Shown here one piece after another: positions 31,272 to 42,578 of a stretch of DNA of 42,578 bases. Both the position numbers and the translations under genes were made by a program. The number at the start of each line of letters is the position of its first letter. Within the stretch, counting starts at the first letter, position 1. Under the pieces are notes generated by a model. The model searched no databases, was not told the DNA's origin, and saw only the letters and a list, made by a program, of their open reading frames with translations. Source of the stretch: Anaerolineae bacterium (lineage in GTDB: Bacteria > Chloroflexota > Anaerolineae > Anaerolineales > Villigracilaceae); assembly GCA_003130845.1 (NCBI GenBank), contig QEXW01000042.1, positions 1 to 42,578 on the forward strand, read 5' to 3'.

Positions 31272-31486
31272 CCCACCACGTGGATTTCACTTTCCACGCC
31301 AGCGGCTATTAATATCGCTTCAATTTGGTCCCTGGCGGGGAGTTCGAATTGCAGGGCAATGCCGCAATCACTGGAGAGTTCGCGCGGCGTGGGGATGAGT
31401 TTGACCGATAACCCCGCTTTTTGCAAGATTTTTTCGGCGCGCAGGGCCGAGGTGGTGGTGTGGAACAAGACAATGCCCCGCTTCAT
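31268..31486 (-). CDS. DUF3343 protein (putative Se/S carrier-like)
   Basis: This 72-residue protein matches the small DUF3343 family, described as putative selenium/sulfur carrier-like proteins. Visible marks are an N-terminal strand followed by HTTTSALRAEKIL, then LIPTPRELSSDCGIALQF with the single conserved-type Cys41, and a C-terminal ferredoxin-like half. Its ATG overlaps the stop of the desulfurase gene (ATGA), so it is translationally coupled and belongs to the YedE-TusA-desulfurase operon. In other bacteria the same four families cluster with selenium metabolism genes. It may receive or pass on a persulfide or selenide from the desulfurase; this is inference. Confidence 0.8.
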   Translation of the reverse strand: MKRGIVLFHTTTSALRAEKILQKAGLSVKLIPTPRELSSDCGIALQFELPARDQIEAILIAAGVESEIHVVG

Positions 31487-32631
31487 GCTTGCGCTATCTC
31501 CCTAACCGCGCAGAGGACGGTTTCGATGTCATGCAGCGTGGTTGTGGGCCCTGGGGCCAGGCGCACCGTTCCGGCGGGGAACGTGCCAAGCGAGCGATGG
31601 GCGGCGGGGGCGCAGTGTAAACCGACCCGGCAAAAGATTTCGTAGTCTTCGTCCAGCCGGTAGCCTACTTCAGAGACAGACTTGCCCTGCAGGGTGAACG
31701 AGAGAACAGCCGTGGCGTGTTGTGGGTCTTTCGGCCCATAAACCGTTACGCCGGGAATTTCGTTCAGGCCTTCGCGCAAACGGGCGGAGAGGCTCAGCTC
31801 GTGAGCGCGGAGAGATTCGATACCGCGCTCGTTGAGCCAAGCCAGGCCTGCGCCCAAGCCCGCAATTCCCACGCCGTTGGGCGTGCCACTTTCATAGCGG
31901 TCGGGCAAGTCGTCGGGTTGAATTTCGTATTCCGAACGGCTGCCTGTGCCGCCGCGCACCAGAGGCCGCAGTTGGGCGGGGTCAAACGAATCGGCCAGGA
32001 CAAGCCCGCCCGTGCCGGGGGGACCATGCAGGGCTTTGTGTCCGGTGAAGGCGAGCAAGTCAACCCCCAGCGTGGGAAGATGGATGGGCAACGCGCCCGC
32101 CGTTTGCGCGGCATCTACCAACACCAGGGCGCCAGCGGCATGAGCGAGCGAGGCAATTTCTTTAACGGGAGCCAGAGTCCCGCAGACGTTGCTGGCGTGA
32201 TTGATGACCACCAGCCGCGCAGGCGTCTGCAGCGCAGCGGCAAAGTCGGCAGGGTCGAGCGTCCCATCTTCTCTTGCCGGAATGACATCTACTTTAACGC
32301 CGCGCGTTTCCAACTCCCGAAGAGGGCGCATGACGGCGTTGTGTTCCATGCCGCCGGTGACAACGCGCTGCCCCGGCTGGAGCAAACCCTGAAGCGCCAG
32401 GTTGAGGGCGTGGGTGGCGTTGAGCGTGAAAATCACCCGCAAGGGGTCCTGCAGGCCAAAAAATTCGGCCAGGGCTTCGCGGGTATCATACACAATACGC
32501 CCGGCGGCGATGGACAGGCGATGCCCGGAGCGGCCAGGGTTACCCCCGGCGCGCTCCAGGAAATCGCGCATGGCTGCCGAAACGGAGGCCGGTTTGGGCC
32601 AGGAGGTGGCGGCGTTATCGAGGTATATCAT
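31483..32631 (-). CDS. Class V aminotransferase, cysteine desulfurase family
   Basis: This 382-residue PLP enzyme should release sulfur (or selenium) from cysteine (or selenocysteine) as an enzyme-bound persulfide. It starts MIYLDNAATSWPKP, a mark of the EF2568-like subfamily often found with YedE/YedF. The PLP lysine lies in FTGHKALHGPPGTGG. The catalytic-loop Cys is in RVGLHCAPAAHRSLGTFPAGTVR. The aspartate of LVDAAQTAGA pairs with the PLP ring. The ATG at 32631 overlaps the TusA stop (AAATGA) and is preferred to a longer frame reaching 32811, which overlaps TusA entirely. It is the third gene of the coupled YedE operon. It is not linked to iscU or suf genes, so a role in iron-sulfur assembly is less likely. 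Confidence 0.88.
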   Translation of the reverse strand: MIYLDNAATSWPKPASVSAAMRDFLERAGGNPGRSGHRLSIAAGRIVYDTREALAEFFGLQDPLRVIFTLNATHALNLALQGLLQPGQRVVTGGMEHNAVMRPLRELETRGVKVDVIPAREDGTLDPADFAAALQTPARLVVINHASNVCGTLAPVKEIASLAHAAGALVLVDAAQTAGALPIHLPTLGVDLLAFTGHKALHGPPGTGGLVLADSFDPAQLRPLVRGGTGSRSEYEIQPDDLPDRYESGTPNGVGIAGLGAGLAWLNERGIESLRAHELSLSARLREGLNEIPGVTVYGPKDPQHATAVLSFTLQGKSVSEVGYRLDEDYEIFCRVGLHCAPAAHRSLGTFPAGTVRLAPGPTTTLHDIETVLCAVREIAQA

Positions 32632-32849
32632 TTGGTAAGCGTGATGCGATAGGTACCATCCGCTTCTTGGATGGTTTCGGCTTTCCAGCCGGTCAGTTTG
32701 CCGGTGCGTTCGATGTTGGTGCGCGAGGTGAAGGAATCGGTCAAGACGATGAGTTCGCCGGAACCGAGGGCAAGCAAGGCTTCGCGGGTCAGCATGGCCG
32801 GTTCGGGGCAAGAGAGACCACGCACATCGAGGTTTTTGGGTTCGGTCAT
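32628..32849 (-). CDS. TusA/YedF-like sulfur carrier
   Basis: This 73-residue protein has the TusA signature LDVRGLSCPEPAMLTREAL near its N-terminus; the Cys in SCPEP carries sulfur (or selenium) as a persulfide. The size is that of a single TusA domain; YedF proteins may be longer. The ATG at 32849 follows AAGGAG at six bases, which rules out the much longer frame to 33134. It lies 71 bases after YedE and overlaps the desulfurase start. The order transporter, carrier, desulfurase suggests handling of imported sulfur or selenium compound inside the cell. Confidence 0.92.
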   Translation of the reverse strand: MTEPKNLDVRGLSCPEPAMLTREALLALGSGELIVLTDSFTSRTNIERTGKLTGWKAETIQEADGTYRITLTK

Positions 32850-32885
32850 TTCAAACTCCTTGAAACATTCAAGCGCTATGGACAC

Positions 32886-32912
32886 AACAAAAAACCGCTT
32901 TTGGTTTTTGTT
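32886..32912 (-). other. AT-rich hairpin with T run between YedE and TusA genes
   Basis: On the minus strand ACAAAAACC pairs with GGTTTTTTGT (one bulged T) around AAAAGC. The 3' arm itself is T-rich. It could be a leaky terminator that lowers expression of the genes after yedE. Confidence 0.35.
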
Positions 32913-32920
32913 TAGAAAAC

Positions 32921-34027
32921 TTAAGCGCTGCGCACTTCGCGCATGGTTAAGCCAATGATGAAGAGAATCACCAAGCCAATCAGGACGATGGCCGGGCCGT
33001 TGGCACCCACGCCTGCCGGGGAACTCGCCAGGCTGTAGGTATGCGCTACGCCAGCCCCAACAATCATACCCAAAACGAAGATGGCTGCGTCGGCGTCCCC
33101 TTCGCCGCTTAGGAAAACCTGCCGCCCGGGGCAACCACCCGCCAGAGTGAAGGCCAGCCCGGCCAGCACCATGCCGCCGAAGTTCCAGAGCGCGTCAGTG
33201 TGGGCCACGGGCTGCCCCTCGAAGCCAGGCTTGAACTGCCCAAGGGCTAGGTTGGTGAGGAAGGCCGCCACAAGCAGGGCCAGCACGCCGTTGAACAGGT
33301 GAGAATCGCGCAAGAGGACGACATCGCGCAAAGCGCCTACGGTGCAGAAGCGGCTGCGTTGCGCCAGGAAGCCTATCACCAGGCCCGCGCCAAGCGAAAG
33401 TAGGAGAGGCGCATGCTGGCTGCCGGGGCCTTTTTCAGAGAAGAAGATGGGGCCGATGGCCTTACCTTCGGCGTCGCGCCCAAAGAGCGGGGCAGCCACC
33501 AGCAAGGCGAGCAGGAGGACAGCAAAAATCGGCATCACCCAGCCCACTACCGGAGAGGCCGGGCGGCTGCGCCCCAGGCTGAAGCCACGTTTGAGGAAGA
33601 CAATTCCCAACCCAATGCCTGCAAATAAGCCAACGATACCGGCAATGGCGTTCCAATCGCCGCCCGCCAGGCGCAGATAGGCACGCCAGGGGCAGCCCAG
33701 GAAAACCAACGCTCCAATCATGGCAAACATGCCCAGCAGGAAACGAATGAGGGGCGAGGAGCCGCCGCGCGGCTTAAACTCTCGGAACAAGAGCGCCGCA
33801 AGAAGCGCACCCAGCACAAAGCCGATGATTTCCGGGCGGATGTATTGAACGGTGGCGGCGCGGTGCAGACCTAACGCCCCGGCAATATCGCGGTTGAAGC
33901 AGGCCACGCAAATGCCCATGTTGCCGGGATTGCCAAATTTGACGAGGATGGGGGCGAGGATGCCGACCACTAGACCGGTGAGGATGGGTCCCCAACGGGA
34001 GATGAAAAAATCGGAGATGGCACGCAT
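32921..34027 (-). CDS. YedE/YeeE family transporter (putative selenium or sulfur uptake)
   Basis: This 368-residue membrane protein has about ten helices and the duplicated YeeE/YedE repeat. Conserved Cys-containing motifs are GICVACFNRD, GCPWRAYLRLAGGDW, RSRFCTVGALRD and AGGCPGRQVFLSGEGDADAA; in YeeE-type thiosulfate transporters such Cys relay the substrate. The GEGDADAA ending is typical of the YedE branch that is linked with selenium genes. The ATG at 34027 has AAAGGA nine bases upstream; the longer frame to 34174 runs through the leader hairpin and is not a real extension. It is the first gene of the operon with TusA, desulfurase and DUF3343. No selD, selA or molybdenum hydroxylase gene is in the window, so selenium is only one of two readings. 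Confidence 0.88.
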   Translation of the reverse strand: MRAISDFFISRWGPILTGLVVGILAPILVKFGNPGNMGICVACFNRDIAGALGLHRAATVQYIRPEIIGFVLGALLAALLFREFKPRGGSSPLIRFLLGMFAMIGALVFLGCPWRAYLRLAGGDWNAIAGIVGLFAGIGLGIVFLKRGFSLGRSRPASPVVGWVMPIFAVLLLALLVAAPLFGRDAEGKAIGPIFFSEKGPGSQHAPLLLSLGAGLVIGFLAQRSRFCTVGALRDVVLLRDSHLFNGVLALLVAAFLTNLALGQFKPGFEGQPVAHTDALWNFGGMVLAGLAFTLAGGCPGRQVFLSGEGDADAAIFVLGMIVGAGVAHTYSLASSPAGVGANGPAIVLIGLVILFIIGLTMREVRSA

Positions 34028-34060
34028 AATACGAGTTCCTTTCGTTTTGATGGAATCAAA

Positions 34061-34092
34061 ATGGGTCTCCACGCGCAAAGCGGGAGACCCAT
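34061..34092 (-). promoter_or_regulatory. Attenuator-like hairpin in the YedE leader
   Basis: ATGGGTCTCC (34061-34070) pairs with GGAGACCCAT (34083-34092) in a perfect ten-pair stem. Read on the minus strand the stem is followed by TTTTGATT, and the YedE start codon comes 34 bases later. It has the form of a terminator placed ahead of the coding region. Confidence 0.6.
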
Positions 34093-34182
34093 GAAACCCG
34101 TAGGCTGTGACTAAGCCAGGGATGACACGGACCACCTGCCGCGCGTCAGAGGCGGATGCGGCACGCGCATCCAATGACGGTT

Positions 34183-34513: not shown

Positions 34514-35611
34514 TTGAACACCTCTCGACCTTCGATTATCCAATCCTTTGCCCCTAGCTGGTTCGCTGCCGTGATGGGAACAGGCGTCATCAGCATTGCA
34601 GGCGCGGCTTTTCAGTTCGTCTTGCCGTTTGCGCCCACTTTGCAGATATTCTTTCTGATAATCGCCCTGCTGTTCTTCGTCAGCGCGCTCATCCCCTGGA
34701 CACTACGCTGGTTCTTGTATTTTGAAGATGTGCGGCGCGACTTAAACCACCCCGTCTTGGCAGCATTCTTTCCCACCATGCCCATTTCGTTGATTGTGAT
34801 AGGCATTGCGCTCGAAAAAACAGGGAACCGCTTGCTGCCAGAATCCGCTCTGTGGAGCATACTGCAGGTGTTGTGGCTACTGGGCGCAGCAGGGATTTTG
34901 TTCTTTGCCTTGGTGATTCTCAACATATTTTTACACAAGCCAGAAATTGAATGGCAGGCCTCCACGCTGGGCTGGCTGATTCCGCCCGTTTCGGCGCTGA
35001 TTGTCCCGGTTTTAGGCGGGAGCCTGAGCCTGCATTTTTACGGCACAGCATGGGGCGAGTTGAACCTGCTCGTCAGTCTCGTTTTTCTGGGGATAGGCAG
35101 TTTTCTGTTCGTGTTCGTCATGGCGGTCGTGCTGACCCGCTACATTTTCTACGCCCTCCCCCCCGCACACCTAGCGCCAACCATGTGGGTTGGGATTGTG
35201 CCAACTTCGATTTTAACAATCTTGAGCATACGACTGGTGAAACCCATTTCGCAATTCTTCCAAGCCGGTCCCGAAACTGAACAATTGCTTGCCTTGTTGG
35301 CACGGCCAACCGGCGTCATACTTTGGGGTTTTGCGGCGTTTTGGCTAAGTTTAGCACTGGTGGTCACGTTAGAAATCTGGCGCAAATCAAACATCCCCTT
35401 TGCATTGAGTTGGTGGGCCTTCATCTTTCCACTGGGCGCATTTGCAACCGCGAGTGGCGTTCTGTATCAAGCCATCCCCGCCAAGCTATTCTTGTGGACA
35501 GGGCTGCTCGCCCTGGCCGGCGTGATAGCGCTCTGGGCAGGAGTCACCTTCCGCACGGCCCAAGGAATTTTGAGCGGCACGATTTTCAAACCACATGGAG
35601 GGTCCAAATAA
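34514..35611 (+). CDS. TDT family anion channel/transporter (TehA/SLAC1/Ssu1-like)
   Basis: This 365-residue membrane protein has about ten helices. The start SFAPSWFAAVMGTGVIS is the family hallmark, and the central part keeps the helix pattern of TehA/SLAC1 channels and of fungal sulfite exporters. Members pass small anions: nitrate, chloride, malate or sulfite. Next to sulfur genes a role in sulfite or related anion export is the most attractive guess. The start is TTG, with GAGG five bases upstream. It diverges from the YedE operon and converges with the XRE-cupin gene. No close operon partner follows. Confidence 0.85.
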   Translation: MNTSRPSIIQSFAPSWFAAVMGTGVISIAGAAFQFVLPFAPTLQIFFLIIALLFFVSALIPWTLRWFLYFEDVRRDLNHPVLAAFFPTMPISLIVIGIALEKTGNRLLPESALWSILQVLWLLGAAGILFFALVILNIFLHKPEIEWQASTLGWLIPPVSALIVPVLGGSLSLHFYGTAWGELNLLVSLVFLGIGSFLFVFVMAVVLTRYIFYALPPAHLAPTMWVGIVPTSILTILSIRLVKPISQFFQAGPETEQLLALLARPTGVILWGFAAFWLSLALVVTLEIWRKSNIPFALSWWAFIFPLGAFATASGVLYQAIPAKLFLWTGLLALAGVIALWAGVTFRTAQGILSGTIFKPHGGSK

Positions 35612-35691: not shown

Positions 35692-36300
35692 TTATCCAAT
35701 GTGCTTGATAGACGGGAAGGCAACAAAATGCCGCTCAACCGTCTCACGCGATTCGTCCGGCGTCTGGATGACCAGGATGAAAGCCGCCCGCTCATCGAAA
35801 GGGTTGCGCCAGATGTGCGGCAGGGTGGCCTCGAAAATCAGGAAATCGCCCTTTTCGACCAGGTACGCCTGGCCATCAATCAGATATTCCACCCGACCCT
35901 GCTGGCAAAAAATAAATTCCTGCCCGGGGTGTGCTACGGGGCGGTCACCGCTGGTGGCACGCGGCTCCAGCATAACCAAAAACGGTTCCACTTCCTGGCC
36001 TTTCAGCCGCTTGCCCACGCCTTCGATGGTCAGGCCATTGCCGTTCACAACCGGCCGCTCACTGTTTTTGACCAACAAAACGTGCCCGGTATATTCATCA
36101 TCGAAAAAATAGCTGACCTTGACATTCAGCGCCCGCGCCAGGCTTTGCAGGGTAGAGACGCTGGGAGAAATCTCCTCGCGCTCGATGAGACTGACCGAGT
36201 TGGTCGAAATCCCGGCCAGTTGGGCCAAGTCACGCTGCGAAAGCCGCCGTTCAGCGCGCAATTGGCGCAAACGGTCACCCAGCGAAATTTTCACGTTCAT
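35692..36300 (-). CDS. XRE-family regulator with cupin sensor domain
   Basis: This 202-residue protein has an N-terminal HTH of the XRE type (about 5-65: LGDRLRQLRAERRLSQRDLAQLAGISTNSVSLIEREEISPS) and a C-terminal cupin barrel (about 100-190: GDRPVAHPGQEFIFCQQGRVEYLIDG, then EKGDFLIFEATLPHIWRN). Relatives control sulfur, polyamine or amino-acid metabolism by binding a small ligand in the cupin. The ATG at 36300 follows AGGAGC at seven bases; the upstream ATG at 36339 lies in the operator and has no ribosome site. Its own promoter overlaps TGTGA/TCACA half-sites, so autorepression is likely. It lies between two sulfur-type gene groups and may regulate either. Confidence 0.88.
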   Translation of the reverse strand: MNVKISLGDRLRQLRAERRLSQRDLAQLAGISTNSVSLIEREEISPSVSTLQSLARALNVKVSYFFDDEYTGHVLLVKNSERPVVNGNGLTIEGVGKRLKGQEVEPFLVMLEPRATSGDRPVAHPGQEFIFCQQGRVEYLIDGQAYLVEKGDFLIFEATLPHIWRNPFDERAAFILVIQTPDESRETVERHFVAFPSIKHIG

Positions 36301-36316
36301 CAGCGATGCTCCTATC

Positions 36317-36364
36317 TCACAAGATGATGTGAATATCATAACAAAAAAACGCGAAAATTCACAA
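36317..36364 (-). promoter_or_regulatory. Promoter and likely operator of the XRE-cupin gene
   Basis: Read on the minus strand, TTGTGA (36364-36359) and TATGAT (36340-36335) are 18 bases apart. A palindrome TCACA-N6-TGTGA (36317-36332) covers the expected start of transcription, and another TGTGAA/TTCACA pair spans the promoter. The layout fits autorepression. Confidence 0.55.
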
Positions 36365-36434: not shown

Positions 36435-36471
36435 AAAACCATCCCGAAGGAACCGAAGCCCTTCGGGATGG
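36435..36471 (-). terminator. Terminator of the OTR-YeeE operon
   Basis: CCATCCCGAAGG (36439-36450) pairs perfectly with CCTTCGGGATGG (36460-36471). Read on the minus strand it is followed by TTTTG. It lies about 76 bases after the stop of the YeeE-rhodanese gene. Confidence 0.85.
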
Positions 36472-36547: not shown

Positions 36548-37849
36548 CTATCCGCATCCCCCGCCAGATTTATCACGCTTAATTTGCAATTGAATCTTCG
36601 GCTCAAACTCAAGATGCTCATACTCAATTGGGTCAGGGTCGGCAGCTTGGTAACGGTCACCCAAAGCAGCGGGGAAGGTGAAATTTAAGTATCCAGCAGG
36701 CGCGCCAAGCGCAGGCTGAATTTGTGGGTCATTCTCTCCAAAGAAAGCAATCCATGCATTTAAGCCACCCTCTAACAAATAAACATTCGGTACACCCTCT
36801 GCTACCAATAAACGCCAGGCTTCAGTCGCCAGTGTCTCATCATTGCTCATGACGACATACACAGCGTTCGGGGCAGCCGTAGCAAGCAGTTCAGGAATAT
36901 GTTGCTGAAGGGTATCAGCAGGCAGATTTAAGGCACCTCGCACATGGAAAAGGTTGTACTGGGCTTCCGGGCGCACATCAATCATGGTGAGCTTGAGCTT
37001 CTGGTCATAGCGCGCCTTAAACAATTCAGCTGGGCTAATTTGCACCAGGCGCTTTTGTAAGGCTTCCTCAGCACTGTATTTGACCTGCACATCTTTCACG
37101 GTTCCATCGGCTTGCAACTCTGGCACAGTACGCAGAATGGTCACTCTTTGATATTTTTCTTGTGTAGAAGGCGCCCCAAGGATGAGAACGGTCAGCGCCA
37201 AAACCACCACAGCGCCTGCACCATAGAGCCGCCAGCGGGGCTCGTGACTCATATCTTTCTTTCCGACAATCCGTTCTAACTGTTCTGCGCCCCAAAACAT
37301 AAACAATGCCATCAAGACCACCAGCAGAACAATCACGCCCATCGGCAGCCCAAACACGTCCATCAACGTCACACGACCATAGTAGCTGACATTGTTATGC
37401 CAATAGGTAAAGAACCGTTCCGTTTCTCCAAACAAGAAAGCGCCGACAAAGCCCCCCAACATGAAAAACATGCCGTCAATTTTCCCGGTCGAAGCCGAGG
37501 CCAGGGAGGTAGTAGGACAAAAGCCGCCAATGATAAAACCGACACCCATAATCAACCCACCTAAGATGCCCGGCCATAGATACGTCGGGTTGACCCAAAC
37601 TTGGTTGTAATCCAAAATACCCAAACTCACCGAAAGAAAAAGCAGGGTCATCGCAGTAATTACAGCGGTAAACATGACCTTGAGAACAGTTAAGTCCTTG
37701 AAGTAAAACTGCGCCGCTAGTTTGCGGCTATTGCCGAAACCAGACAATTCCAGAACAAAGCCAAACGCAAAACCTATCAAACCAAAGACCAGATAGGTCC
37801 AAGGATTTTGGGCGCTGACATTTTGAAAGGCAAGAAGAGGAAAGTTCAT
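36548..37849 (-). CDS. YeeE/YedE membrane protein fused to a rhodanese-like domain
   Basis: This 433-residue protein has a YeeE/YedE membrane part (about 1-195, with GFGNSRK and GFIIGGFCPTTSLASASTGKIDG), another helix at about 208-228, and a soluble rhodanese-like domain at about 270-370 (TMIDVRPEAQYNLFHVRGALNLP, then GVPNVYLLEGGLNAWI). The rhodanese active-site Cys is absent: the loop after VYVV is MSNDETL, with Met334 where Cys is expected. The last residues are KSGGGCG, placing a single Cys432 on a flexible Gly tail. By topology the domain is probably outside the membrane. AGGAG lies eight bases before the ATG. It follows the short YeeE protein and ends an operon with multiheme cytochromes, suggesting sulfur-compound transport tied to respiration. 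Confidence 0.85.
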   Translation of the reverse strand: MNFPLLAFQNVSAQNPWTYLVFGLIGFAFGFVLELSGFGNSRKLAAQFYFKDLTVLKVMFTAVITAMTLLFLSVSLGILDYNQVWVNPTYLWPGILGGLIMGVGFIIGGFCPTTSLASASTGKIDGMFFMLGGFVGAFLFGETERFFTYWHNNVSYYGRVTLMDVFGLPMGVIVLLVVLMALFMFWGAEQLERIVGKKDMSHEPRWRLYGAGAVVVLALTVLILGAPSTQEKYQRVTILRTVPELQADGTVKDVQVKYSAEEALQKRLVQISPAELFKARYDQKLKLTMIDVRPEAQYNLFHVRGALNLPADTLQQHIPELLATAAPNAVYVVMSNDETLATEAWRLLVAEGVPNVYLLEGGLNAWIAFFGENDPQIQPALGAPAGYLNFTFPAALGDRYQAADPDPIEYEHLEFEPKIQLQIKRDKSGGGCG

Positions 37850-37895
37850 AATTCATTCTCCTGTGGCAGGCAGCCGAAGGTCCGACTCAGCGATG

Positions 37896-38465
37896 TTAAT
37901 TCCACAGTTTCCGCACAAAGTAGGCCAAGGCATACGCACCGGCAAAGATAGAGAGCATCACCGTCCATGAACCGGCAGAAAGCACGGCACCACCTGTGAG
38001 CGCTTGACCAGAAGTACAACCGCGAGCCATGCGCGCACCGTAGAGAAACAGAACGCCGCCAATAAAAGCCAATAACCAGCGTGTGCGGTCAGACACCTGT
38101 GGACCCTTTGTCGTCTCTAGTTTCACGCGCCCACCAATCAAACCCGATGTAAAGCCACCGAGCAACGCGCCAAAAAAGACCGGAACCAGCCAGTCATCCA
38201 GCGGGTTTTTGTCGCCACCTGCCATTTTGAGCAGATAGGGCGTGCGGTCCACATGCGCAGGGTCTATCTGGTCCTGTACAAAGGTCACCAAGCGGCTGGT
38301 AGCGCCTGAAGAGCCAAGCCCGTTGCCGGTGAGGAACAAGGCCAGGAACAGAACAATGCCAAGTATCATACCGCCTAGGTAAGGATGCACATACGGTTGC
38401 GTCGGGCGGTTGAACAAGGTTTTTAGGTCAAAGCCTTTTTTGACGGACTTAGATGCAAGTGCCAT
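37896..38465 (-). CDS. Short YeeE/YedE membrane protein
   Basis: This 189-residue protein has about four helices and one YeeE/YedE unit, with the motif GARMARGCTSGQALTGGA that holds the conserved Cys. Long single-chain YeeE proteins contain two such units; here the second unit is probably supplied by the following YeeE-rhodanese protein, 46 bases downstream, as in two-gene PmpA/PmpB-like pairs. The loop at about 60-90 is hydrophilic. AAGGAG lies six bases before the ATG, and the gene begins 20 bases after the cytochrome fusion gene. Confidence 0.87.
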   Translation of the reverse strand: MALASKSVKKGFDLKTLFNRPTQPYVHPYLGGMILGIVLFLALFLTGNGLGSSGATSRLVTFVQDQIDPAHVDRTPYLLKMAGGDKNPLDDWLVPVFFGALLGGFTSGLIGGRVKLETTKGPQVSDRTRWLLAFIGGVLFLYGARMARGCTSGQALTGGAVLSAGSWTVMLSIFAGAYALAYFVRKLWN

Positions 38466-38485
38466 AATTTTCTCCTTAGAGCGAG

Positions 38486-41170
38486 TTACTCATGCTCCAC
38501 TTCTTCCCAGCCGGTGACCATAGCACGCATGGCTTCAAGCGGGGTAGCGCCGGTTGTGGTGAGGTAGACATGTCCCACAATAAACGACCCCAACAACCAG
38601 GCAATGAGACTGTGAAGCGGAGCCAGGAAAGGTAAACCTCCTAACCAACCAGCAACCTGGGGCCATTCTTGTACGCCCCACATTAACGCGCCCGTGAGCA
38701 TTTGCAAGGGCAACAAAACGGTCAGCAAGCCGAAGTAGGTGAACTGCTGAAGCGGGTTGAGCTTTTTCTCGCGGCGCTTCTCAAACGGATGGGGTTCACC
38801 CTTAAAAATACCCAGCGTGTAGAACTTGACCTGTAGCACCATATCGTTGATGATGCCAACCGGTTTGAGGAAGTTGGGAATATACTGGCGCACTTCGCCA
38901 GTTGTTACATGCCAGAACAGCGAGAAGATAAAATTGAGAATGAGAATAGCCGCTAACACGTTGTGAATTAAGACCATGTGCGGGAAAGAGAAGGCACCAA
39001 ACATGTCAGGCCGATGAATGACGAGTCCGCTCAAGAGCAAGAACAGGATAGCAAAGGTCTGTAGCCAGTGCCAGAAGCGTTCATAGGCCTCATACATGTA
39101 GACGCTTTTCAACACAGGTTGGTGTTTTGGACGTTTCAACCAGGCGATATAGCGCAGCGTGCCGTGTCCTGCTACGCCAAGCAGTGTACCAACAAAAGCC
39201 AAGGCACCCAACCAATCAATCCAGTGAATTCGATCGCGGCCAAAGACATACACACCGTCTTTCATTGTTAGCGGTTGATAAAAGAGCGCACCGCCTTCAC
39301 CCCGGACGATTTCACCGGTCGTGTTGACATTCGTATCACTGACAAAGTGCGGTGTGACTCCTGCCGGGGTATAGACAGTCAGTTGCATGGTGGCCGTCAC
39401 GCGCGAATTATCGCTATGGCAGGTGGTGCAATCACGAATGGCATATCCTTTGCCTGCTACGTTGTGATTAACGCTATAAGGTTGTACCTGACCCTCAATG
39501 CGTGGATTTTCTAAGCCAAGCGCTTCCAGCCGCGCAGCGACCACTGATTGTTTCTCAAGCGTATCTGTGCGTAACTCGCTCGAGTCAATTCGGCCATTCT
39601 TGTCAACATCAAAAGCGGCCATGATTTCCGGCGCATACTGCCCGTTGACCAAGTAAGCAGCAGTGAGATCCGCCTGACGCACTGGGCGCGGGCCAGTCTT
39701 GCTGTCATAGACCCAGTAAAAGGTTGTAATTAAGTTATACGGGGCCAAAAGTTTCTGTCCATCAATGTTGGTTCTCTGCATCAGAACCGGTTGATACCCG
39801 GTGACCAAGTCGTTGACCGTATCGCCCCCGGTTAAGCCACGGCAGAGATTGGCCGGTGTGCCATCCAGTTGAATCACCGTCCAATCATACGATTGAATCG
39901 CTGGCGCATATAGCTTCGGGATATGACAGGATTCACAGGCCAACACGCTCATATGTTGCCCCGCATAAGGCAACCAATCGCTATGGCTATTGGCCGCATC
40001 GTGACAAGATTCACAACGACGCATGGTGCCTTTTAATTCTGGGGCAACCGTAAATTGAGCGCTCTGTCCGCGAGCAAAGTTATGGTCAGGCCGCTGTAGG
40101 TACTCTCCAATTTCCAGTTTTCGGGGGTCATATTCTAAGTGACCAGGAGCAGCAAACGATTGAGCATGTGTCGGGTTATTGAGCGAGTAATGACAATCTG
40201 TACACTCCAAGCCGCGTTCGGCATGAATATCCCAAGCGCGGTTCAGGTCCTTTTTTCCCTGCAAATTTACCCCGGATTCGGCAATCTTCTGCCCGGCAAA
40301 AACCTGGCCCGTAGTAGCGGTTTGATGATACTTCAAATCACAGGCTGAAACAAGCAGGGGCTCAGCGCGGTTGGCGTGAACTTCACCATGACAAGCAGCG
40401 CAGTTTTGGTTGGTTGGGTCCTGAATTTGTACAAACTCTGGCTTGAGTTTGCCATCGGCATCAAAAGCAACCGGGTTGTAGGTAAACCCCTCGCCCTCCT
40501 GCTCAACCCAGCCTGTCCCTAACAAAGTAGCGGTGTTGGCTTGTCCAAAGCGTCCGGCGCGAATTTCAGCAGCCCGTGCTTCCAAATTCGGCTGGGCCAG
40601 GTGACACAAAAAGCAGTTCATCTCCATGACGCCCGATTTCGACCAATCCCACGCTTCAGGCTGTAGCGTTTGTGGGTTAAGAATGGCCGTTTCCGGATTG
40701 GTGGGGTCAGGCGGAAGTTGTTGCAGTGGTTGTCCTGTGCGCGAGGTCGTAGCCGGTCCACCGCCTGGCACACGCTGTCCATTCAGCATCAACCATTCCG
40801 CTGTGCTTAAATCCAGTCGGTCATCCCCTGGTTGAGAGAGATAGCGATACGTGAGCGGGTTCCATTTGTCAAACAACCCGCCACCGGTTTGCAACCCTAA
40901 ATCAGCATGAAAACTGTGAGATTCGATGAAAACTGTGTCATGACATTGTCCACAGGTTTGCATCGTACTGACCGGATTGCCAGTTTGCAAGACATTCTGC
41001 CCCTGTGCATCGAGCAAAGCAAAGACCGGATGTAGAGGAGAAGTTTGTGCAACGATTTCAGCCGGAGGCCGAGCAAGCGCCTGCGAAACACCAAAGAGCA
41101 GCGCAGCCAGCAAAAGCAAGCCAAGACCAGCCAAGAACAGGGATTTGCGGTGAAAAGTGATGGTTTTCAT
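38486..41170 (-). CDS. Multiheme cytochrome c fused to a cytochrome b membrane domain
   Basis: This 894-residue protein starts with a signal/anchor helix (about 9-33). The extracytoplasmic part (about 40-640) has seven CXXCH haem motifs (CGQCH, CFLCH, CAACH, CTDCH, CESCH twice, CTTCH) and one degenerate CDLKYH where the second Cys is missing. An EF-hand-like calcium loop, DVDKNGRIDSSEL, lies before the last haem. The C-terminal about 250 residues form a four- to five-helix cytochrome b561/PhsC-like domain with His in RFWHWLQ, LIHNVLA, PLHSLIAW and GHVYLTT, fit to hold two haems b. The design suggests quinol oxidation in the membrane and direct electron transfer to the fused haem chain, then to the adjacent OTR-like protein. 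No Shine-Dalgarno is evident. Confidence 0.88.
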   Translation of the reverse strand: MKTITFHRKSLFLAGLGLLLLAALLFGVSQALARPPAEIVAQTSPLHPVFALLDAQGQNVLQTGNPVSTMQTCGQCHDTVFIESHSFHADLGLQTGGGLFDKWNPLTYRYLSQPGDDRLDLSTAEWLMLNGQRVPGGGPATTSRTGQPLQQLPPDPTNPETAILNPQTLQPEAWDWSKSGVMEMNCFLCHLAQPNLEARAAEIRAGRFGQANTATLLGTGWVEQEGEGFTYNPVAFDADGKLKPEFVQIQDPTNQNCAACHGEVHANRAEPLLVSACDLKYHQTATTGQVFAGQKIAESGVNLQGKKDLNRAWDIHAERGLECTDCHYSLNNPTHAQSFAAPGHLEYDPRKLEIGEYLQRPDHNFARGQSAQFTVAPELKGTMRRCESCHDAANSHSDWLPYAGQHMSVLACESCHIPKLYAPAIQSYDWTVIQLDGTPANLCRGLTGGDTVNDLVTGYQPVLMQRTNIDGQKLLAPYNLITTFYWVYDSKTGPRPVRQADLTAAYLVNGQYAPEIMAAFDVDKNGRIDSSELRTDTLEKQSVVAARLEALGLENPRIEGQVQPYSVNHNVAGKGYAIRDCTTCHSDNSRVTATMQLTVYTPAGVTPHFVSDTNVNTTGEIVRGEGGALFYQPLTMKDGVYVFGRDRIHWIDWLGALAFVGTLLGVAGHGTLRYIAWLKRPKHQPVLKSVYMYEAYERFWHWLQTFAILFLLLSGLVIHRPDMFGAFSFPHMVLIHNVLAAILILNFIFSLFWHVTTGEVRQYIPNFLKPVGIINDMVLQVKFYTLGIFKGEPHPFEKRREKKLNPLQQFTYFGLLTVLLPLQMLTGALMWGVQEWPQVAGWLGGLPFLAPLHSLIAWLLGSFIVGHVYLTTTGATPLEAMRAMVTGWEEVEHE

Positions 41171-41220
41171 GGGTTCATTCGTTGTGTGTCATCGCGCAAT
41201 CAGCATGAAACATCGTGTTA

Positions 41221-42578
41221 CTACTTACGCCCGCCCCACTGCATGGGGTCGCCAGGGTAGCCAAGTGCCTGCCAATTCATACGGCCGTTCTCACCATGGC
41301 AGTCATTGCACTGCAAAGCATTTTCTTTGGGCTGAACCATGTGCGTAATCGGCCAATACATATAGGTTTGAGCAAAGCCATAATTGCCGCTGTAGGGCAA
41401 ACCAATGCGTTGCTCAGCAAGGCGGAAGGCTTGATCCCAATCGAAGTTTGTCCAGTAACCATCCGGGCCGGCAGTGATTGGCGCAAGCAAATAGTTATAG
41501 AGCGTATCGTAGGGCTGATTACCTACATGGAGTTTGAAGGGGAAGATTTTGGCTTGTGGGTCGTTGATGTTGCCGGCCGGTTTGTTGATGTAGGTTGGTT
41601 GCGTCGGATCAATGACATCACCCAACAGGTAGCGGTATTCCAAATTGCCATTAAACCATAGGTAGGTTGGCTGAACGTTCTTCTGGTACACAAACGAGCC
41701 TTTGATTTTTAGATACTTGTAATGGTCATCTCCTAAATCCTGTCCAGAAGTAGACCAATCCCATGAGACTTTGGTGGGGTCTTCGATGGCAAAAGCCGGG
41801 ATGTGGCAGGTTTGGCAAGCAACTGCGCTCATGTGCAAGCCAATTCGTTCGTCTTCGTGGGGGTTGGCGTTGTGGCATTGCGTACAAGAGACTTGCTCGG
41901 CAGGGTCAATCACCAGATTATCAGCCACCAAGCGCCCCTTGATTTGATGATTGGTGGTGACGTGGCAATCGGTGCAGACAAAATTATTGCGTCCCATGTG
42001 GACATCTTGGCTTTCAGCAGGGTAATACAAACTCTCATCCAGGTCCCCATGTTTGACACCATTGCCACCCCCACCGTTAAAGTGGCACTTTCCACACTGC
42101 AAACGAGTGGGGGCGCCTACGCTTTGTGCTGCTGCCACTAGATTTACCCCATCCCGAGGATTACCGTATTTACCCTTGGCATACCCGCTCTGGGCATGAC
42201 AAACCAAGCAATCGACATTGGCCGGGTCATTGAGATTGGCGCCGTAATTCTCTTCCGTCCAGTTATAGCCAATGTGGCAGCTGGTGCAACTCCGTTGATT
42301 GCCTTGTGCACTGATACAGAAGTTGTTAATTTGATTGAATTTTCCAATGGCAACTTTTTCTCCATCCCGCCAGGGAATTTCGACCGGCTCGCTCTGCCAA
42401 GTCCAGTGACTGGTCATCATCACGTCTTCTGCTGCTTTGGGGTGACATTCCAAGCAAGCGCGGGTGATGTCAGGCCCGGTGACGGTCGCAGGGTCAACCC
42501 CCTTAAAACGTGCGGCAATGATGTCAGTGTGTGGAACATGCACAGGATGCTTGGGAACGGCTGCCCAGGGGTCATCCA
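41221..42578 (-). CDS. Octaheme cytochrome c, tetrathionate reductase (OTR) family, 5' end outside window
   Basis: The visible 452 codons have eight CXXCH motifs (CLECH, CTSCH, CLVCH, CGKCH, CTDCH, CTQCH, CQTCH, CNDCH), the full set of the OTR family. The stretches ACLECHPKAAEDVMMTSHW and FNQINNFCISAQGNQRSCTSCH match OTR of Shewanella as I recall it. That enzyme reduces tetrathionate, and also nitrite and hydroxylamine, in vitro; its true substrate is unsettled. The frame stays open to the right edge of the window, so the start (with signal peptide) lies outside; the GTG at 42543 is not the true start. The cytochrome c-b fusion begins 50 bases downstream, a plausible electron donor. Confidence 0.9.
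   Translation of the reverse strand, partial: DDPWAAVPKHPVHVPHTDIIAARFKGVDPATVTGPDITRACLECHPKAAEDVMMTSHWTWQSEPVEIPWRDGEKVAIGKFNQINNFCISAQGNQRSCTSCHIGYNWTEENYGANLNDPANVDCLVCHAQSGYAKGKYGNPRDGVNLVAAAQSVGAPTRLQCGKCHFNGGGGNGVKHGDLDESLYYPAESQDVHMGRNNFVCTDCHVTTNHQIKGRLVADNLVIDPAEQVSCTQCHNANPHEDERIGLHMSAVACQTCHIPAFAIEDPTKVSWDWSTSGQDLGDDHYKYLKIKGSFVYQKNVQPTYLWFNGNLEYRYLLGDVIDPTQPTYINKPAGNINDPQAKIFPFKLHVGNQPYDTLYNYLLAPITAGPDGYWTNFDWDQAFRLAEQRIGLPYSGNYGFAQTYMYWPITHMVQPKENALQCNDCHGENGRMNWQALGYPGDPMQWGGRK

Follow-up and report, generated by a model that had tools for sequence, protein, structure and literature searches.

OTR, an octaheme c-type cytochrome that reduces tetrathionate, nitrite and hydroxylamine in vitro, has a physiological role that to our knowledge is still open. 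In this report we describe a four-gene operon in which an OTR-family cytochrome is combined with a cytochrome c-b fusion protein and two YeeE-family proteins, YeeE-S and YeeE-Rhd, the latter ending in a GGGCG tail. The operon lies at one end of contig QEXW01000042.1 (C12) of an Anaerolineae bacterium, which is 42,578 nucleotides long and was analysed over its whole length ("the window" below). Described relatives exist for its parts, and the statements cited here are drawn from passages of the respective papers. OTR has already been noted in Anaerolineae bins (PMC7887784). For the OTR of orange Beggiatoaceae, a tetrathionate-reducing activity of 93 umol/min/mg is reported, significantly above its activity with nitrite, and in-vitro reduction of nitrite and hydroxylamine is stated in the same source (PMC6449678). 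A cluster of OTR with a b561-type cytochrome has been described in Ignavibacteriae Ch128a (PMC7509429), and such a pair is also present on a Photobacterium plasmid. YeeE transports thiosulfate, which is taken over at the cytoplasmic exit by a Cys of YeeD, termed the 'fourth cysteine' (PMC11073785), and a split arrangement of the YeeE halves has been described for PmpA/PmpB (PMC11582611). SoxY, finally, ends in GGCGG, a C-terminal end that carries the sulfur-binding Cys (PMC6067878) and is a swinging arm (PMC5336275); in lucinid symbionts, which are sulfur oxidisers, OTR adjoins soxY-S3 and soxZ (PMC11237559). In the open-licence literature, judged mostly from listings and passages, we found no description of the operon or of a YeeE-borne GGGCG tail. 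The parts are known, but their combination and the transporter-borne arm appear new. An earlier note on this DNA had known of no described pathway with this set; this appears to hold for the four-gene combination, but not to the association of OTR with b561, which had already been described.

The source genome comprises 3.77 Mb in 159 contigs, one of which is the window. Four open reading frames (ORFs), all on the minus strand like the features within them, span positions 36548-42576 with gaps of 46, 20 and 50 bases, counted from the lower coordinate upwards. They encode OTR (41221..42576), the cytochrome c-b fusion (38486..41170), YeeE-S (37896..38465) and YeeE-Rhd (36548..37849). A hairpin search located a terminator-like hairpin of 13 pairs, followed by a T run, behind them on the same strand (36439..36471). 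The number of terminator-like sites in the 2.2-kb stretch searched was unremarkable (5, compared with a shuffle mean of 3.3); this hairpin had the longest stem, and the remaining sites had 5 to 8 pairs. The layout of same-strand genes with short gaps and a shared terminator, to which the earlier note had pointed, was thus confirmed.

Related loci in named genomes were found by means of YeeE-Rhd, and the 80 loci considered are the best 80 of 296, a sample in which distant relatives are under-represented. Genomes recur between the fetched sets, and the counts given here are therefore not summed. All four genes were present in 69 of the 80 loci, including four with a partial OTR at the contig end (L038, L057, L080 and L099), and in the remaining 11 no more than 226 bases separate the first core gene seen from the upstream contig end. 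On these numbers, a chance juxtaposition of the four genes was rejected. The view of the earlier note that OTR, the b561-bearing cytochrome and the YeeE proteins form a unit is supported, and the lack of conservation beyond the source genome that it had named as a refutation was not observed. All 20 fetched relatives, picked from strong matches with long contigs, had the genes in the same order and on the same strand. A further 20 regions contained all four genes in 14 cases and were cut by contig ends in five (L175, L181, L188, L191 and L193), and the last, L192, held a distant OTR-like gene without YeeE. Among 301 Chloroflexota genomes, OTR was above the cut-off in 12, each with a second match in the neighbouring cytochrome c-b gene. 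The four-gene set could be read in 11 of them, and the twelfth (G054) has OTR, cytochrome c-b-like and YeeE-S matches within 5 kb of one contig.

YeeE-S matches the C-terminal half of PF04143 (profile positions 168-309), and the larger YeeE-Rhd its N-terminal half. They look like the two halves of one channel, YeeE-S being PmpA-like and YeeE-Rhd PmpB-like. Two separate transporters were rejected on the grounds of the PmpA/PmpB scheme, as described in passages of PMC11582611. As in YeeE/TsuA-YeeD and in PmpA/PmpB, each half has one conserved pore Cys: Cys150 of YeeE-S, in the motif ARGCTSG (38016-38018), was found in 75/75 aligned proteins, and Cys111 of YeeE-Rhd (37517-37519) in 81/81. To this a partner Cys is added. 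The C-terminal part of YeeE-Rhd consists of a rhodanese-like domain (36734..37048) and an SGGGCG tail (36551..36568) with Cys432 at 36554-36556, a proposed sulfur-carrier arm. The earlier note overlooked both features, which we rate as the most telling part of the locus. The domain was recognised by its PF00581 profile match and by Foldseek, where the leading matches of the YeeE-Rhd model were rhodanese-type (best E 2.4e-4). Unlike in rhodaneses, the catalytic Cys is absent from the active-site loop (VVMSNDE in the window): it was found in none of the 81 YeeE-Rhd proteins, and an active rhodanese sulfurtransferase was rejected on this basis.

The tail is invariant. GGGCG forms the C-terminal end of 77/77 complete YeeE-Rhd proteins from the 80 named-genome loci, a count that leaves out L087 and L091, which stop at the contig end, and L111, where an in-frame TAG precedes the tail and the contig ends 119 bases later. 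More distant relatives (38-59% identity) end in GGCG in 17 of 18 cases, three of which (L174, L175 and L191) repeat L101, L108 and L089, and the 18th reads GGG-TGA-Gly-stop. Neither GGCG nor GGCGG was found at the end of any of the 1542 other ORFs of the loci, whose fetched regions overlap; the 101 ORFs with such an end are all 380-560 amino acids long and were assigned to YeeE-Rhd by this length. The Gly-Gly-Cys-Gly end is shared with SoxY, a likeness of motif only. Unlike SoxY, YeeE-Rhd has no SoxY domain match and no SoxZ in its set, and it is anchored in the membrane on a transporter. In 49 proteins, the Lys plus Arg value per loop, from the N-terminal tail to the loop before the last helix, was 0.2, 2.4, 0.0, 1.0, 1.35 and 5.9, with loops drawn by hand from hydropathy. 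Because of these charges, an N-out, C-out topology is predicted, which would place the N-terminus, the rhodanese domain and the tail outside the cell. The tail is also predicted to be flexible, its predicted local distance difference test score (pLDDT) lying under 50 in a model with a mean of 72. In contrast to the YeeE-YeeD system, the extra Cys would thus be covalently tethered and located at the entrance rather than the exit, and the four-gene set has no TusA-like gene.

In two genera of one family, the Cys codon of the tail is replaced by TGA. In YeeE-Rhd of L182 (genome G489), one TGA replaces the pore Cys codon (GGY-TGA-PGTS) and another that of the tail Cys, while L217 (G514, from the other genus) has TGA for the tail Cys only; a third genome of the family, G513, has Cys. 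Each tail TGA is followed by a Gly codon and then by a true stop. Each of the three TGAs has a hairpin on its 3' side, the loop being GGUC for the pore TGA and GUU and GGC for the two tail TGAs; compared with shuffles the hairpins reached z values of -2.68, -1.53 and -1.92, and the same places at three Cys sites gave 0.51, -0.91 and -0.62. A general recoding of TGA in the two genomes is unlikely, since the OTR and cytochrome c-b frames of both loci are open without TGA. The gene selA was above the cut-off in 5/6 genomes of the family and selB in G514 and G513, and a tRNA-Sec match of 72 bits was obtained in G421, from the genus of G489. Because the tail Cys codon is TGA, with a 3' hairpin and with selA in the genomes, we predict selenocysteine at these positions, for which the evidence is suggestive. 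A single pattern scan for TGA in other PmpB-like loci yielded nothing. PMC13188914 lists selenoproteins of the YeeE family (motif GUxSG) and one of the OTR family; in passages of this paper, selenocysteine in a C-terminal tail was not found.

The OTR of the window scores 543.8 bits against TIGR04315 (cut-off 375) and aligns over nearly its entire length with the Shewanella OTR structure 1SP3 (E=4e-129). It contains eight CxxCH motifs. Lys175 (42052-42054) aligns with Lys153 of 1SP3 and Cys87 (42316-42318) with Cys64, with 1SP3 residue numbers counted along the alignment. We take Lys153 to be the catalytic haem ligand and Cys64 to lie near it. The eight haem motifs and the Lys and Cys87 positions are identical in 66/66 aligned OTR proteins; no literature pairing OTR with Cys64 was found. 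About 34 N-terminal residues are absent relative to the nearest relative and, the window being a whole contig, the start of the gene lies outside it. At the N-terminus of most full-length relatives with inspected starts there is a basic stretch together with a single hydrophobic segment, so the protein is probably exported or anchored in the membrane. While these features are those of Otr (1SP3), the gene here is one of a unit of four, alongside those for the split YeeE and the seven-haem-b561 protein.

This second cytochrome combines seven CxxCH motifs (39416-40954) with a C-terminal b561 domain (PF01292, 78 bits, cut-off 30.1; about 38510-39094). It also matches the PhsC-type thiosulfate reductase cytochrome b family NF011582 with 135.8 bits, which is under the equivalog cut-off of 204. 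Over 199 residues, its b561 part shares 41% identity with the product of the b561 gene adjoining OTR on the Photobacterium plasmid (L234), but there the protein is 207 amino acids long without haem-c motifs, and by eye no YeeE-like ORF was seen nearby. The top Foldseek matches of the model, 1kqf_C and 6g94_A, cover the b-type part only and have a probability of 1.00 but an E of 0.02-0.03; no match reached 0.001, and much of the haem-c part has a pLDDT under 50. Within the seven-haem domain there is an EF-hand-like loop (DVDKNGRIDSSE, 39575-39610, minus strand), the first Asp and last Glu of which are identical in 30/30 aligned proteins and the Gly in 29/30. No viral contig matched the cytochrome c-b patterns.

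We propose that the operon encodes a quinone-linked module for sulfur redox chemistry and uptake at the external side of the cytoplasmic membrane, in which OTR acts on sulfur held by the arm near the YeeE pore, and assign this a probability of about 0.55. The b561 domain would exchange electrons with the quinone pool, and seven and then eight c-haems, fifteen in total, would conduct them, in one direction or the other, between b561 and the extracellular, lysine-ligated active site of OTR. A single YeeE-type channel would be made up of YeeE-S and YeeE-Rhd, and the rhodanese-like domain, no longer catalytic, would hold the flexible GGGCG arm outside the membrane. The Cys of the arm would then shuttle sulfur, bound as a persulfide, S-thiosulfonate or S-sulfonate, between OTR and the Cys residues of the pore, in parallel to SoxY carrying sulfur between Sox enzymes. 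The gene set, its conservation, the haem and Cys/Lys sites, the missing rhodanese Cys and the invariant tail with its TGA codons were read from the sequences; the carrier role of the arm and its contact with OTR and the pore we infer. SoxY-S3 of lucinid symbionts would be a second, independent case of a carrier paired with OTR. As to the direction, we lean towards quinol-driven reduction of polythionate or of arm-bound sulfur, favouring it over an oxidation that feeds quinone, for which the case is weaker. The earlier note had envisaged quinol-driven reduction of a sulfur or selenium oxyanion, with YeeE importing the product or exporting a precursor. The sulfur link was borne out through the YeeE halves and the SoxY-like tail, but the reductive flow and the export were not. 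More tentatively, the system could be one of redox-driven group translocation, where sulfur bound to a transporter-tethered Cys or Sec arm is changed in its oxidation state by OTR and then passed into the YeeE pore. If so, respiration and vectorial sulfur transfer would be one process. The locus points to a new form of coupling between respiration and the handling of sulfur on the cell surface.

A rival reading is plain polythionate respiration, where OTR would reduce free tetrathionate with quinol, the YeeE pair would import the thiosulfate formed outside and the tail would only tune the pore entry. The tetrathionate activity of the Beggiatoaceae enzyme (PMC6449678), the existence of OTR with b561 alone (on the Photobacterium plasmid and in PMC7509429) and thiosulfate transport by YeeE (PMC11073785) are in line with it. 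However, it leaves the invariant tail, the tail TGA in two genera and the loss of the rhodanese Cys unexplained, and we regard it as improbable. The proteobacterial carriers, on the other hand, include Thiobacillus and Parasulfuritortus, which oxidise sulfur, and in Thiobacillus (L062) a flavocytochrome c sulfide dehydrogenase gene lies directly downstream of the set. Together with the OTR beside soxY-S3 and soxZ in symbionts (PMC11237559), this would speak for an oxidative Sox-like module, in which OTR joins thiosulfate or sulfide to the arm, electrons run via cytochrome c-b to quinone and sulfur passes through YeeE. We give this similarly low odds: the OTR activities reported in the passages of PMC6449678 are reductive, and neither SoxB, the Sox gene covered by the profile search, nor DsrA was above the cut-off in any of 20 carriers, although neither passed it in 14 control genomes, so that this result has no positive control. 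Since none exceeded the cut-off, the module does not appear to serve SoxB or DsrA pathways in these carriers, which also sets it apart from the SoxY system.

In-vitro reduction of nitrite and hydroxylamine (PMC6449678) would allow for a nitrogen reductase with the YeeE genes as passengers. This is very unlikely, as the YeeE halves adjoin OTR across the loci sampled and accompany it in both phyla; the 80 loci were selected by YeeE-Rhd, yet the OTR search of 301 genomes agrees (12/12 above the cut-off). Least probable of all is the handling of selenium or another chalcogen oxyanion instead of sulfur, for which the TGA variants of the tail and a selenium-type cluster (YedE, YedF-like and desulfurase-like genes) 2.4 kb away in the window could be cited. 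The regions of 20 relatives, about 18-20 kb each, contained no YedE or YedF-like match and a desulfurase-like gene in one case only.

Several observations weigh against a sulfur-carrying arm and the module built around it. No SoxY model is among the Pfam or NCBIfam matches of YeeE-Rhd, and confidence is low in the YeeE half of its model, where the pLDDT is about 45-70 as far as residue 170. The parallel with SoxY-S3 is weakened because the swinging arm of this OTR partner has several changes from the canonical one (PMC11237559). The terminal thiol could act instead in thiol-disulfide exchange or metal binding. SoxB-like matches below the cut-off were present in 10/20 carriers, the best with 346 of 550 bits (G482), and in L218 (8685-11988, from G513) the order is rearranged to YeeE-S, YeeE-Rhd, OTR. 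With regard to selenocysteine, two of the three hairpins are modest, 14/200 and 9/200 shuffles being equally good; selB of G489 was seen in fragments below the cut-off only, and the tRNA-Sec match of this genome (47.1 bits, cut-off 47) is at noise level, a cut-off that 5/14 control genomes pass.

The four-gene set is common in Anaerolineales, and among named genomes the closest relatives are metagenome-derived Anaerolineales, foremost L034 (isolate SKYG2) with 91% identity over YeeE-Rhd. Whole-genome searches, which covered Chloroflexota, found YeeE-S relatives (E of 1e-54 or better) in 54/100 genomes of the source family, its own included, and full-length YeeE-Rhd in about 24/150 genomes of the class, one match being partial. 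In the midpoint-rooted YeeE-Rhd tree, the five proteobacterial rows group together as a single clade (100/100) surrounded by Chloroflexota, and they also make up a single clade in a quick tree of OTR; a sixth proteobacterial locus (L080) was excluded, its OTR being cut. These data fit a single transfer into proteobacteria, and joint transfer of the whole set would follow from the two gene trees and the shared gene order. A plasmid collection contained five OTRs at 38-42% identity and no full-length YeeE-Rhd, with six partial matches. Anaerolineales are abundant and poorly cultured. If the module handles sulfur, the view of Chloroflexi in sulfur cycling would change, given how widespread its YeeE-S relatives are in the source family; passages of a sediment Chloroflexi genome study state no evidence for such a role (PMC3971608). 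With a constant partner whose arm resembles that of a sulfur carrier, the physiological role of OTR becomes testable and, as Parasulfuritortus cantonensis strain LSR1 (L051) carries the same four genes, this is possible without a cultivated Chloroflexota strain.

Among the neighbouring genes, an ArsR-type gene (PF01022) is the immediate upstream neighbour of OTR in 51 loci. It was present in 50/63 loci with a full OTR and sufficient room, an under-count due to over-extended OTR frames in L047, L072 and L097, and one Cys is identical in 52/52 of its proteins. The contig of the window stops before the place where it would be expected, and the best match in the source genome is only 54% identical. 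The five proteobacterial loci with sufficient room have the four genes, but the ArsR-type gene was not found there, and we therefore treat it as a regulator rather than a core gene. In L217 (13569-16277), a PmpA/PmpB-like pair comes after a second ArsR-type gene, and its PmpB-like member has one TGA in the frame. An XRE-cupin regulator is located downstream of the operon in the window (35692-36339, minus strand). Its family occurs in 35/100 loci, many of which are short, mostly divergent upstream, with 34/36 genes on the opposite strand, and the divergent upstream gene of many relatives is 36-45% identical to it. In the window, by contrast, it lies downstream on the same strand, and it was rejected as a fixed part.

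The selenium-type cluster of the window (31483-34174, minus strand) consists of a desulfurase-family gene, a TusA/YedF-like gene and a YedE transporter gene (TIGR04112, 509 bits), and the source genome additionally has selB and a tRNA-Sec match of 78 bits. A link between this cluster and the operon was rejected in view of the 20 relatives' regions without YedE or YedF-like matches. On a megaplasmid of Paracoccus ferrooxidans (pFER4; L233, 1403-10518), OTR stands directly behind a run of suf and cysteine desulfurase genes. In L015 (15582-18510), more multihaem cytochromes with 7 and 6 CxxCH motifs, one with an N-terminal NapC/NirT match, are encoded beyond a divergent regulator, and similar genes occur in some other relatives. 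Adjoining the operon of the window on the plus strand is a gene for a SLAC1/TDT-type channel (34514-35611), and in L014 the operon is followed by a gene 73% identical to it.

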